DNA from: Herpetosiphonaceae bacterium
GTDB taxonomy: Bacteria; Chloroflexota; Chloroflexia; Chloroflexales; Kallotenuaceae
Assembly (NCBI GenBank): GCA_036374795.1
Contig: DASUTC010000316.1
Coordinates: forward strand, 1-50,994
DNA length: 50,994 nt
Direction of reading: 5' to 3'
Shown: in pieces, positions 29,676 through 35,314 of the stretch
Layout: each line of letters opens with the position of its first letter
Numbering within the stretch: position 1 is the stretch's first letter
Translations under genes and position numbers: made by a program
The notes under the pieces: model-generated
What the model saw: the letters and a program-made list of their open reading frames with translations, nothing else
What the model was told of the DNA's origin: nothing
The model's database searches: none

Positions 29676-30848
29676 CTAGCCGCTGCCAAGAGCAATGGAT
29701 TTCAACCGCGTCCGCTCGGTCGCTTCCAGCCGCTCGATCATCAGCGCCCACATCCTAGCTGCGATGCCATCCCAGGTGGCCTGCTCAAGCAGCGGCTCTG
29801 CGCGCTGCTGTCGCTCCTGGCGCTCGGCGGGCGACGCGGCCAGCAGCCGCTCGATCGCGGCGATCCAGGCGTCGACGCCATCGGCCACCGTGACGATCCC
29901 CTGGTAGGTAGCGACGACATCGGGCACCGAGGTGCTGATCACATCCTTGCCACCGGCCAGGTATTCGAGGGTCTTGGTTGGGCTGATAAACCGAGTGGCC
30001 TCGTTGAGCGCAAACGGCATCGTCGCCAGATCAAAGCTTTTCAGGTAGCGGGGCAGGTCGGCGTAGGCTTGCTGGCCCAGGTAGTGCAGATTCGGCGCGA
30101 CCGGCAGCTCAGCCGGGTCGACTTTCGCCGTGGGGCCGATCAACAGCCAGTGCCACATCGGTCGTCGCTCGGCGATGCTTGCGATCAGCGACCAGTCGAT
30201 GCGCTCGTCGAGCACGCCGAAGTAGCCGAGGCGGGGCTGCGGTATGGCGGACAGCGCGGGCACGTCAGCCGTAGCCTGCTCCTGGGCCGCGCGGTAATGC
30301 TGCACATCGACGCCGCTGGGGAAGCAGTGAACATGCGCATGACACGTCTTGCGCGCCTCGTACATCGAGCGTCCGCCGGTGAAAACGAGATCGACCAGAC
30401 TCAGCAGCCGCGATTCGTGCAGCCGCATCTCAGGCGTACCGCCCTTGAAGCTGGCGAGATCGTCCATACAGTCGTAGACGGCAAGCTTAATCGAGGGCTG
30501 CGCAGCGGCGACCAGATAGTCGGCCAGCGGCGAGAAGACCCACAGGATCGTGTTTGGCCCGGCCAGATCGAGCACGGCTGGCAGCAACGCAACCCACAGC
30601 TCTTGATAGCTGTGGCCGGGCGTGTCGATCAGCGCCATCGGAAAGATCGGCTGGAGCACCCGCACACCGGCTGCGCCCGGCTGCGCCCGTAGCTGCGGAT
30701 GCTCGTACCCGGACATAATCTCCGGCGGATCGACATAGATCACGCGGCAATACTGCGCAAAGCGCGTCGTCAACTGCTGGGGCCGCTGCCACACATGGTC
30801 CCACTTCAGGTGTGACAGGCAGAGCAGCGTCAATGGTTGGTCGGACAT
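29676..30848 (-). CDS. Glycosyltransferase (GT-B fold)
   Basis: This 390-residue protein begins MSDQPLTLLCLSHLKWDHVW and has QRPQQLTTRFAQYCRVIYVD, typical of glycosyltransferase family proteins that open with a statement of a search for the right partner, followed by LAVYDCMDDLASF, FTGGRSMYEARK, CFPSGVDVQHY, LGYFGVLDERIDWSLI and a GT1-like C-terminal half with SPTKTLEYLAGGKDVIST. The E in that last motif is the usual nucleotide-sugar contact. It is soluble. It may build surface or exported polysaccharide; the sugar is unknown. The ATG at 30848 has only a weak AAAGAGA upstream. The gene for the DHODH-like fusion lies 112 bp upstream on the same strand. Confidence 0.85.
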   Translation of the reverse strand: MSDQPLTLLCLSHLKWDHVWQRPQQLTTRFAQYCRVIYVDPPEIMSGYEHPQLRAQPGAAGVRVLQPIFPMALIDTPGHSYQELWVALLPAVLDLAGPNTILWVFSPLADYLVAAAQPSIKLAVYDCMDDLASFKGGTPEMRLHESRLLSLVDLVFTGGRSMYEARKTCHAHVHCFPSGVDVQHYRAAQEQATADVPALSAIPQPRLGYFGVLDERIDWSLIASIAERRPMWHWLLIGPTAKVDPAELPVAPNLHYLGQQAYADLPRYLKSFDLATMPFALNEATRFISPTKTLEYLAGGKDVISTSVPDVVATYQGIVTVADGVDAWIAAIERLLAASPAERQERQQRAEPLLEQATWDGIAARMWALMIERLEATERTRLKSIALGSG

Positions 30849-30960
30849 AGGATGTCTCTTTCTTGTGTTACGGCGCGAGGGCAGCCAGATCGAGCCGATC
30901 AGCATGCGCGCAAATGCGGGACTAGCCATAAGCAATTTGCTTGCCGTCAACGACCATGCT

Positions 30961-32955
30961 TCATCGATGATCAGGAACAGGACATACGCCGTCACGCAGG
31001 TGGTCGCAGCTCCGAGCCGCACGATTTCCCGCGAGATAGGGGTAGAGCAGCGCAAGGCCCAGCAGATAGACGCCGAGCGCCGCCAGCGCCGGGCTGACAT
31101 GCCAGAGATCGGTGTAGCCAACGGTGAGATGAACACCGAGCGCGCCGATAAATCCGGGCAGGCCAGCCAGGCAAAGCGTCCACCAGACCCAGCAGGCACC
31201 GCGCCGGATGCCCCACAGCGCCGTGAGCAGCACGGCCAGACCATTGGAGACGAGCGCGCCGCCAAAGCCCGCCCGGTCATGCGCGACGAGCGCCACCAGA
31301 CGCGGGTTGATTGCGTGCAGCTCAGCCCGCGTTGTCTGGAGGAAGGCAAGATCTTCGGGCACGAAGACGCTCGTCACGCCGATCACCGCGATTGCGCTCC
31401 CGGCCAGCACTAGGCCGATCCCCAGACCGACGAACAGCAACTGGCCCCAGAGCGCGGAGCGCCAGGTGACATCGTTGGCGAGATCCGGCTGCGGGATTAT
31501 GGGAGTAGCGCTGGCAGGCTGGCGCATACCAAGCAGAAAGAGCGGTAGCAGCAGCAGGCTAACGAACGCATGGAGCGGATCGAAGTAGCCAAAGCCCAGA
31601 AAAAGGAAGAAGCTGGCGAAGCCGACCGATGCCGACGCCCTGACCGCGCGCTGCGCCCAATGGACGCCGTAGCGCAGCGCGTGAAGCGCCAGCTGGGCGT
31701 AGAGCACGCCGATCGAGATCATCGTTCCGGCCAACGTGATGCGATCGTGGGCCATGAAGGGCAGCAGGCGCGGGTTGAGCGCGGCCAGCTCTCGCCGCGA
31801 TAGTTGGACAAACGCCTCGTCATAGGGCAGCACCACGCGCGTCGCCGCGATCAGCCAGGCCAGGCCGCCGCCGAAGATCATGCCATAGCCCAGAAGCAGA
31901 ATCGCCAGCCACGGCCTCCATCCCCAACGGCGAACGGGCTGACGTTCCGGCTGATTGGCTTTCTCACGCGCCAGGAGCGCCTCGTTGATCCGCTTGGGCA
32001 GCCCAGGCCCGGCGTAGATCAGGCCGCTACAAAGCTGCACCAGCGATGCGCCAGCCGCCAGCAGCGCCAGCGCATCGCCCGGCTCATGCACGCCGCCTGA
32101 GCCAATAATCGTGATGCGCTCGCCCCAGCGCGCATGGATCTGCCGCACAAGCTCAAGGCTGGCCCGCGCTGCCGGTCTGCCGATCAGCCGCGTGTGGCGC
32201 GAGTCGCGCACACCGCCGCCGATCACCAATCCGCTGATGCCGAGCGGGATCGCCGTATCCAGCAGGTGATCGACGCGCGCGACATGTACGTCGGGCCTCA
32301 GGCAGAGCAGCACCGCCTGGGCTGGAGCGATCGTGCGCGCCGCCTGTGCTATCAGGCGCAGATACAACGCCCACTCCCCGGCGGTCCAGCCAGCGTCGCA
32401 TCCTCCGGCACAGTCGAGGGTAAAAAAGCTGGTGTATGGAGCGAGATCCCGCATCATGGCCGATTGTTCGCGCGCTGCCGACTCAGGATCGGCTGCGGGC
32501 CGGTGCGCGAGGCGCACACCGAGCGGCACGGGAAGCGGGGTAATCCTGGCAAGCTGCGCGGTCAGCGCCCGTACTCCATCGTTGACCGGCAGATCGGGAT
32601 AGCGTAGCGCCTGATGCGCTACGTCGCGCACGATCGGAGCCGTCGCGGCAACCGGCGCTAGCGTAACCGGCCCGACCTCGACAAAGCCCACACCGAAGCG
32701 CGCCAGGGCATGACTTGCCATCGCCTGCGGGTCGAGTCCCGCGCCAATGCCGACAGGACTGGCGAAGGTGAGGCACCACGCGCGGCGCTTCAGCGCATCC
32801 GCCGAGCGCATATGCCCGGCCAACTCGATGATCCACGGCCCGATCGATCGTGATGCCAGCCAGCCGATCGCGCCCAGCGTGAGATCGCGCGCGCGCTCCG
32901 GCGGCAGCCGAAAGAGCGCTGGACGAAAGAGCGGCAGATAGGACCAATCGGGCAT
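30961..32955 (-). CDS. DHODH-like barrel fused to a duplicated membrane domain
   Basis: This 664-residue protein has two parts. Residues 1-330 resemble quinone-type dihydroorotate dehydrogenase: an N-terminal helix pair (MPDWSYLPLFRPALFRLPPE), FASPVGIGAGLDPQAM (64-79), GFVEVGPVTLAP and the FMN-phosphate region ITIIGSGGVHEPGDALALLA with GASLVQLCSGLIYAGPGL. Key catalytic positions look lost: the usual FDK is GLDPQ, the NVSSPNT loop reads DCAGGCDAGW (181-190), and the KIAPD lysine is replaced in LLCLRPDV. Residues 345-645 hold about eight membrane helices as two repeats. Each repeat carries a short loop with (V/F)VxP-D-AF, R-EL-A-NPRL and AHDR (373-405 and 530-561). The ATG at 32955 follows GAGGTG, and TATACT is present at 33006-33011 on the minus strand. 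I do not recognise the membrane domain. Confidence 0.8.
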   Translation of the reverse strand: MPDWSYLPLFRPALFRLPPERARDLTLGAIGWLASRSIGPWIIELAGHMRSADALKRRAWCLTFASPVGIGAGLDPQAMASHALARFGVGFVEVGPVTLAPVAATAPIVRDVAHQALRYPDLPVNDGVRALTAQLARITPLPVPLGVRLAHRPAADPESAAREQSAMMRDLAPYTSFFTLDCAGGCDAGWTAGEWALYLRLIAQAARTIAPAQAVLLCLRPDVHVARVDHLLDTAIPLGISGLVIGGGVRDSRHTRLIGRPAARASLELVRQIHARWGERITIIGSGGVHEPGDALALLAAGASLVQLCSGLIYAGPGLPKRINEALLAREKANQPERQPVRRWGWRPWLAILLLGYGMIFGGGLAWLIAATRVVLPYDEAFVQLSRRELAALNPRLLPFMAHDRITLAGTMISIGVLYAQLALHALRYGVHWAQRAVRASASVGFASFFLFLGFGYFDPLHAFVSLLLLPLFLLGMRQPASATPIIPQPDLANDVTWRSALWGQLLFVGLGIGLVLAGSAIAVIGVTSVFVPEDLAFLQTTRAELHAINPRLVALVAHDRAGFGGALVSNGLAVLLTALWGIRRGACWVWWTLCLAGLPGFIGALGVHLTVGYTDLWHVSPALAALGVYLLGLALLYPYLAGNRAARSCDHLRDGVCPVPDHR

Positions 32956-33487
32956 GTGGATCACCTCATTCTTGGATGCGTCGATGACAGGTGGCCTTAT
33001 CTATCAGTATAGAACTCGTGTGAATCGGGCAGCGGCCTTAGGGCGCAGCAGGAAATGCGTATGCTCGACCGAGCCGCAGATGCGCTCTCGACCGGATAGT
33101 CCGGCGGATTGTGGTGGAGTATGCTGGGATTCCACCTCCCCAAGCGAAGGAGCATCCCGGTGATCGACGCGGTGATGTCGTCCACGCGCCTGCGCGAACG
33201 ATCGGCCTACCTCTGCATGATAGCCCGGCAGTGCTGCTGATCGTGAGCAGCGCCGCCTGTGCCGCATTCTTGCGGCAGCCCGAAACACGGCCCCGCCTCG
33301 GCCATATCGACGATCTGCGGGTAGGAGAGGTCGTGATGCGCGATCTCCTACTGCCCATCGGCGCGCCACGGCACGCAAAGGCTAAGCTTCAGGCGACGGC
33401 CATCAACATACCGCTCTACCTCGTCCGCCTCGCGCCGAGATCGCGGCCTGAGCGCCTGCTTTCAGACCTCCGCTCAGGCGCGACGAC
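32956..33487. other. Intergenic region without a supported gene
   Basis: 532 bp. The left end is the promoter region of the leftward fusion gene. A rightward open frame, 33111-33521, runs into the 3' end of the kinase gene; it has no ribosome-binding site and resembles no family I know. Its middle (PLHDSPAVLLIVSSAACAAF) is protein-like, so a decayed gene is possible. Confidence 0.4.
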
Positions 33488-35314
33488 CTATCTATCCCAG
33501 GTGAGATCGTCGCCGTCGTAGGGCATGTGCGGCAATCGCAGCACGACGGTCGTGCCGACGCCCTCGGTGCTTTCGAGCGTAACCGTCCCGCCGTGCTGCG
33601 TCACGATCCACTCGACGGTCGCCAGGCCGATGCCGGTGCCCCTGATGCTGCCGACGTTCCCGGCGCGGTAGAAGCGCTGGAAAATACGCGGCAGATCGGC
33701 GGCGGGAATGCCGATGCCCTGATCCTGCACGCGGATCGTGGCCCATGTGCCGGATGTGTCGCTCTCGGCTGCTACCGTGATATGGATCTCGCCGCCAGCC
33801 GGACTATATTTGATCGCGTTGGTCAGCAGATTGATCAAGGCTCGCTCCACGCGCACGACATCGTAGAGGCCGATCAGCTCCGGCAGCTCGGACTGGACGT
33901 GCAGGCGATGGCGGCGCGCGCTCTCCTGCTGCTCATCCGCCGCGCGCCGCACCAGCCGCACCAGATCGGTCGGCTCGTGAGGGAGCGCGAGCTTCTGGCC
34001 CGCCTGAAGATGTGTCACCTCTACCAGCTCGTCGAGCAGATAGACCATCCGCTGGATCGCGCTATCGATCTTGGTGAACATATCGCCGAGCGTCTCTTTG
34101 TCCGGCATCGTCGAAGCCTGAACGCGCCGCTGGAGCAGATGGGTAAAGCCCTTGACCACGCCGAGCGGCGTTCTAAAGTCATGCGAAACCATCGCCAGCA
34201 TCTCGTCGCGGGCCTGGATCGCCTGCCGCGCCACCTGATACAGCCGGGCGTTGTCCACGGCCAGCGCCGCACGCTGCGCAAGATCCTGCGCGACGATCAG
34301 GTCATAGCCCGCGTAGGGGTAGTCAGCATGGGTTGAGATCAGGGTAATCACGCCGACGGTATGCTCGCGCGCGACCATCGGGATGACCCAGCCGGATTGG
34401 AGGTTGAGCGCGTGGGCGACGCGCAGGTACTCGCTGTGCTGCGTCGCGCCCGTCGATCGATCGTCGGCCGCTGCTGGGATCAGCCGCGCCTGTCCTGTGC
34501 GGGTGGCCTCGGCCAGCGGGCGGGGCATGTCGTGCAAGGACGAGTACTGAAGCAGCTCGGCGATCAGCGCCTCTGTCGGCGCGTCCAGAGCGGTCGCCGC
34601 CACCCGGCGACGGCTGCCGTCCTCCTCGATAATATCGATCACACAGCCATCGGCCAGCAGCGGCACCGCCAGCCGCGCGACGCTCTGCAAGCTCGTCTCG
34701 GCGTCGAACGAGTCGACCAGCACGCGGCTGACCTGCGCCAGGAAGTGCTGAATCTCCGCCTGATGCTGCGCTTCCCGCGTCGCGCTCCGCAGCTCGATCT
34801 CGGCGACGACCGACGCCGCCAGCTCGTTCAAGATCTCGACCTCGTCTGTGGTCCAGTCGCGCGGCTGCGAGTCGATCACACAGAAGGAGCCGAGCGCCTG
34901 GCCGTCGGCTGTCACCAGCGGAATGCCCGCGTAGGCCACAACATTCAGGTCGGGGATCGCAAGATTGGTGCTGACCAGCGGATGCATGCGCGCATCGCCG
35001 ATCACCAGCGGCTCCGCCGTGGCGATCGTGTGCTGGCAGAACGAGTGCGATAAGGGTGTTTCGCGCCGTGAGGCCCACGGCTCCGGCAGGCCGATGCAGC
35101 TTTTGAAAAACTGGCGATTCTCATCGACGAGCGAGACGAGCGCTGTGGGCGCGTCGAGTATCCTTGTCGCCAGGCGCGTCAGGCGATCGAAGGCAGCCTC
35201 GGCAGGGCTGTCCAGCAGCGCTGTCCGGCGGAGGGCGGCCAGTCTGGCCGCGTTGCGGACGATGTCCTGTGCGGTGGTGTCGATGGGGGGAGGTAGCTCT
35301 GGTAGTTCATCCAT
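33488..35314 (-). CDS. Soluble GAF-GAF hybrid sensor histidine kinase
   Basis: This 608-residue protein has no membrane segment. GAF domain 1 spans about 35-172 (APTALVSLVDENRQFFKSC, the redox/light-type GAF start seen in many kinases; LPLSHSFCQHT-like stretch at 88-97). GAF domain 2 spans about 195-355. The HisKA helix has the phospho-acceptor H378 in MVSHDFRTPLGVVKG. The ATPase domain is about 470-595, with NLLTNAIKYSPAGG (N box), QDQGIGIPAADLP (G1) and GTGIGLATVEWIV (G2). It should phosphorylate a partner regulator, but none is adjacent. Signal is unknown; both GAFs lack an obvious chromophore cysteine context I could verify. The start at 35314 is the first ATG of the frame. Confidence 0.93.
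   Translation of the reverse strand: MDELPELPPPIDTTAQDIVRNAARLAALRRTALLDSPAEAAFDRLTRLATRILDAPTALVSLVDENRQFFKSCIGLPEPWASRRETPLSHSFCQHTIATAEPLVIGDARMHPLVSTNLAIPDLNVVAYAGIPLVTADGQALGSFCVIDSQPRDWTTDEVEILNELAASVVAEIELRSATREAQHQAEIQHFLAQVSRVLVDSFDAETSLQSVARLAVPLLADGCVIDIIEEDGSRRRVAATALDAPTEALIAELLQYSSLHDMPRPLAEATRTGQARLIPAAADDRSTGATQHSEYLRVAHALNLQSGWVIPMVAREHTVGVITLISTHADYPYAGYDLIVAQDLAQRAALAVDNARLYQVARQAIQARDEMLAMVSHDFRTPLGVVKGFTHLLQRRVQASTMPDKETLGDMFTKIDSAIQRMVYLLDELVEVTHLQAGQKLALPHEPTDLVRLVRRAADEQQESARRHRLHVQSELPELIGLYDVVRVERALINLLTNAIKYSPAGGEIHITVAAESDTSGTWATIRVQDQGIGIPAADLPRIFQRFYRAGNVGSIRGTGIGLATVEWIVTQHGGTVTLESTEGVGTTVVLRLPHMPYDGDDLTWDR

Follow-up and report, generated by a model that had tools for sequence, protein, structure and literature searches.

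Dihydroorotate dehydrogenase (DHODH) has been studied intensively, both as an enzyme and as a drug target, and the locus described here raises the question of what a DHODH-like barrel is doing at the front of a large membrane protein. The window analysed, a stretch of 50,994 nucleotides from a Herpetosiphonaceae bacterium, contains a minus-strand gene with its ATG at 32955 and its stop codon at 30961-30963; GAGGTG is found at 32962-32967, six bases upstream of the ATG. A sequence-only reading had described the product as one 664-residue protein, in which a DHODH-like barrel precedes about eight membrane helices built from two copies of one unit, and had proposed that the barrel either donates electrons to the membrane part or binds a ligand for it. 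Coordinates of the features discussed are collected in Table 1.

Table 1. Features of the fusion gene in the window, and desaturase-type genes beside the barrel-free form at other loci
Feature	Residues	Position	Strand	Basis or remark
Whole coding sequence, 664 aa, MPDW start	1-664	30961..32955	minus	ORF reading
Class-2 DHODH-type N-terminal helix pair	1-50	32806..32955	minus	NCBIfam alignments, model helices
Degenerate DHODH barrel (pseudoenzyme)	51-331	31963..32805	minus	DHO_dh match, Foldseek, active-site loss
Membrane unit 1, four helices	348-478	31522..31914	minus	AlphaFold2 helices, profile match to unit 2
PYDEAF...NPRL...AHDR, unit 1 outer loop plus first part of helix 2	377-405	31741..31827	minus	
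GYFDPLH, outer end of unit 1 helices 3/4	456-462	31570..31590	minus	H462 invariant
Membrane unit 2, four helices	496-645	31021..31470	minus	AlphaFold2 helices, profile match to unit 1
PEDLAF...NPRL...AHDR, matching element of unit 2	533-561	31273..31359	minus	
VHLTVGYTDLWH, outer end of unit 2 helices 7/8	608-619	31099..31134	minus	
FA_desaturase-type genes beside barrel-free form		L051 7053-7922; L053 8968-9762; L054 7045-7890; L150 6963-7775		

The fusion is a real protein of an unnamed family and not an assembly artefact. The same arrangement was recovered in 52 distinct full-length proteins, aligned from Chloroflexota, Bacillota, Planctomycetota and Verrucomicrobiota, nearly all of which begin with MPDW (VPDW in two). 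An AlphaFold2 model of the full protein, run on 13 aligned sequences, reached a pLDDT of 86.5 and shows the barrel followed by eight long helices, in agreement with the helix count proposed earlier. An assembly or reading-frame error joining two genes was considered, as some copies are frameshifted or cut (L037, G653, G700 and L009), and was ruled out: the junction is identical in the 52 full-length proteins, which come from many genomes and include long single contigs, and the chance of such an error is negligible. That the barrel plus duplicated membrane module and a dead active site occur together in this protein we regard as nearly certain.

A search for a sigma-70-like promoter close to the gene was negative, a result of little weight in this organism. 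Its neighbours in the window are a glycosyltransferase group 1 gene (29676-30872, minus strand) and a GAF-histidine kinase gene (33488-35314, minus strand), neither of which consistently recurs beside the fusion in distant genomes. An all-against-all comparison of neighbours at 41 Bacillota loci and others gave no operon partner for the fused gene beyond close relatives, and no conserved neighbour was found across distant Bacillota.

Pfam DHO_dh (PF01180) is the sole model to match the fusion protein above its cut-off, aligning with residues 55-328 (E 8.1e-19, 68.3 bits against a cut-off of 27). Foldseek likewise places the barrel with class-2 DHODH (E 3e-17, target-normalised TM mostly 0.8-0.88), and the barrel assignment of the sequence-only reading therefore stands. 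The helix pair and barrel are shared with the quinone-linked class-2 enzyme PyrD (PF01180; TIGR01036/PRK05286; PDB 8ofw, 1f76, 6b8s), at 20-28% identity. NCBIfam class-2 DHODH models begin to align at residue 6-8 of the fusion and reach residue 335, while the AlphaFold2 model has N-terminal helices at residues 3-14 and 19-35. Within this segment W4, Y6, R23 and G47 occur in 52 of 52 fusions, and H48 in 50. In true class-2 enzymes the N-terminal helix pair serves in membrane docking and as the quinone tunnel. Because this pair is retained and strongly conserved, the C-terminal membrane domain is an addition to it and does not replace it.

Unlike PyrD, the fusion carries a C-terminal membrane domain of 300 residues, lacks the catalytic Ser/Lys/Asn set and falls below the NCBIfam cut-offs, with a best class-2 DHODH score of 169.9 bits against 267. 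The roles of the catalytic and flavin-contact residues of DHODH are well established. The Lys of AGxDK is found in 0/52 fusions; in NxSSPNT the first Asn is found in 0/52, the Ser base in 3/52 and the second Asn in 0/52; the Lys of xKxAPD is kept in 1/52, and the three TNT residues in 1/52, 0/52 and 4/52. The same eight residues are present in 25-27 of 27 genuine class-2 enzymes taken from the host's own taxonomic order, a set that includes the pyrD of the host genome. That pyrD is intact (G000:C185, 291 bits), and a separate, stronger DHO_dh match exists in all 17 fusion genomes checked, although two are fragmentary. By its residue losses the fusion barrel is a pseudoenzyme derived from class-2 DHODH, and together with the separate DHO_dh genes these losses contradict the proposal that the barrel donates electrons. 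An active quinone-linked dehydrogenase, its barrel passing electrons to the membrane part, would account for the retained class-2 fold and N-terminal helices, but with the catalytic base, the active-site Lys and the isoalloxazine contacts gone, and the score so far below the nearest class-2 model, we consider it highly improbable. Automatic annotation may nevertheless misread such a barrel as a quinone DHODH.

Judged from substitution ratios, the fusion protein is under purifying selection, which is strongest on the N-terminal helices and the membrane part. Between close pairs the barrel core had a median dN/dS of 0.24 and the barrel end one of 0.11; residues 1-50 stood at 0.04 and the membrane part at 0.065, on 8-12 usable, non-independent pairs per region with some synonymous distances near saturation. 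The mean frequency of the most common residue is 0.67 in the membrane part versus 0.48 in the barrel. At a dN/dS of about 0.24 the barrel core is not free to decay, which would fit a ligand sensor, in which a new small molecule occupying the old flavin/orotate pocket gates the membrane module. The glycines at the phosphate-binding end are also mostly kept (third Gly of GxGG in 50/52, Gly of LSG in 45/52), and since some of them persist the barrel may bind FMN or another phosphate ligand. New residues recur in the pocket as well, with D/E at the position of the TNTT Asn in 39/52 and His at that of the QxYT Tyr in 36/52. However, this recurrence may reflect ancestry because most of the 52 fusions are from Bacillota, and the Verrucomicrobial members, at 571-592 aa in total, lack much of the middle of the barrel and yet keep the N-terminal helices and the membrane part. 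A repurposed sensor is thus conceivable, but we hold it to be somewhat unlikely.

The membrane half consists of two copies of one unit that share a loop motif, as the sequence-only reading had recognised; each unit has four helices, and its repeat motif spans 29 residues. Profiles of unit 1 and unit 2 align over 113 columns with an E of 7.5e-27, and the pairwise score between the units in the window protein lies 28 standard deviations above shuffles; on these comparisons the duplication is not due to chance. Across the fusions P377, Y378, D379, H403, D404 and R405 are invariant in unit 1, and D535, H559, D560 and R561 in the matching element of unit 2, where H609, Y614 and H619 are invariant further along. 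The His, Asp and Arg residues H403, H462, H559, H609, H619, D379, D404, D535, D560, R405 and R561 are each found in 52/52 fusions, a residue set about two thirds of which is from Bacillota. Mean net loop charge over the 52 fusions is positive in loops 2, 4 and 6 and at the C-terminus and negative in loops 1, 3, 5 and 7. From this bias and the positive-inside rule we infer that the barrel lies in the cytoplasm and that the His/Asp motifs are at the predicted outer face of the membrane.

Apart from one incidental subthreshold match, residues 340-664 have no Pfam or NCBIfam model that describes them at E<=1, and neither database holds a family with the architecture of the fusion. Relatives of the membrane unit gave no Pfam match above cut-off and no NCBIfam model either. 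A literature search, covering open-licence papers, found no description of a pseudo-DHODH/membrane fusion. The fusion marks an unnamed membrane family, and its invariant histidines constitute a testable prediction.

Structural comparison offers a second line of interpretation, in which the module, instead of binding a cofactor, would serve as scaffold or assembly factor for some larger complex in the membrane. In VIA-align, the membrane half matches best to chain O in the Ycf2-FtsHi complex of Chlamydomonas (PDB 8xqw), a plastid import-motor subunit, with which it shares the overall helix arrangement across both units (245 residues, Z 16.9, against 6.8 for the runner-up), although arrangement alone can bring helical bundles to a Z of about 13. 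The same pair gave a Foldseek E of 0.022, a TM of 0.41 and 13% identity, and a Foldseek search of the membrane half gave no match below 0.001. Against the sequences of solved structures the membrane half produced chance matches only, with no sequence or profile match to chain O. Those titles and abstracts that a search retrieved on the 8xqw complex do not contain the name of this chain. DUF4345/DoxX-like small membrane proteins, among them the assembly factor TMEM35A/NACHO, share with the membrane unit a four-helix size and weak hints from profiles and fold. TMEM35A has a Z of 5.5 to the membrane half, a value that commonplace arrangements of helices also reach. The best DUF4345 match (E 0.13, 12.7 bits versus a 26.5 cut-off) is on a distant single-unit relative, and the window fusion protein itself does not match this Pfam model. 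Clusters of invariant His, Asp and Arg are not obviously needed by a scaffold, and we rate such a role as rather unlikely. The match to chain O does not suggest redox chemistry and counts against the cofactor reading given below.

The interpretation we favour, tentatively and with somewhat less than even confidence, assigns a cofactor or redox role to the membrane module and a docking or regulating role to the barrel. The duplicated four-helix module would be the working part of the fusion, its outward His/Asp clusters binding a metal, heme or quinol head-group, and would carry out redox chemistry on a membrane-soluble substrate such as a quinone or lipid. The dead barrel and its conserved quinone-tunnel helices would dock against the inner leaflet and regulate or stabilise the module. 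Consistent with a working membrane module, constraint is strongest on the N-terminal helices and membrane part and weaker in the barrel core. A more specific version, a new and widespread class of membrane redox or metal proteins with an outward His/Asp site whose pseudo-DHODH reads the quinone pool through the quinone-tunnel helices, is speculative and on balance improbable. Taken together, the evidence does not firmly separate the cofactor, ligand-sensor and scaffold readings.

Relatives of the membrane unit encoded without a barrel also bear on the cofactor reading. As the earlier reading had anticipated, a genome survey recovered the unit on its own, both duplicated and single. The duplicated barrel-free protein (L051, L053, L054, L055, L057, L010, L061 and L150) has both units and the PxD, HDR and GY-D-H motifs of the fusion, but it lacks the barrel and falls in a separate clade (100/100). 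In four Planctomycetota/Verrucomicrobiota loci its gene is adjoined by an FA_desaturase-type gene, the FA_desaturase match ranging from 1.1e-27 to 3e-23 in the three of these loci that were scanned; other barrel-free loci have no adjoining gene of this type. The desaturase neighbours speak for the redox reading, but the link concerns the unfused form only, and this limit, its absence at other loci and the lack of a conserved neighbour for the fused gene weigh on the other side. Single-unit proteins of four helices, in open frames of about 150-260 aa, are found in Chloroflexota and Actinomycetota (L063, L064, L072, L211-L216). They have one unit, no HDR triplet and no barrel. Counterparts of H559, H609 and H619 recur in these single-unit relatives, which favours the cofactor reading of the membrane module. 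Among the single-unit proteins of L211-L216 and L218-L220 (Actinomycetota, Chloroflexota), the histidines matching unit 2 are seen as conserved SHLQ/SHLH, H and GHLG.

The fusion protein spans at least four bacterial phyla and is rare outside the Paenibacillaceae samples. Its relatives are found in Roseiflexaceae, two more Chloroflexota lineages, Paenibacillaceae, other Bacilli, Planctomycetota and Verrucomicrobiota. Matches to the membrane profile occur in 76 of 104 Paenibacillaceae genomes, nearly all in open frames of fusion length. The other samples gave matches in 26/349 genomes of Bacilli, 22/346 of Actinomycetota, 14/301 of Chloroflexota, 5/294 of Planctomycetota and 4/241 of Verrucomicrobiota, many of those in Chloroflexota and Actinomycetota being weak or single-unit. 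In the tree of the membrane domain the fused form makes one clade apart from a small set of unfused proteins (100/100), and in the barrel tree, which has long branches, all fused barrels lie on one side of a branch from the true class-2 enzymes (100/100). Given these two splits, a single fusion event is the simplest history. A pseudo-DHODH in most Paenibacillaceae and in several phyla suggests reuse of the fold for a different task, in which the chemistry was lost while the helices on the quinone side stayed, and Paenibacillus offers cultivable hosts that carry the fusion.

Damaged copies of the fusion, either frameshifted or truncated, were seen in Paenibacillus sp. P25 (L037 6982-8924), where the defect is in the barrel, and in two further Paenibacillaceae (G653:C1 and G700:C109). 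A Chloroflexota copy from the same genus (L009) ends after about residue 440. In a genome of the same family, a class-2 DHODH match (G005:C3:950477-951490) lies within a 675-residue open frame.
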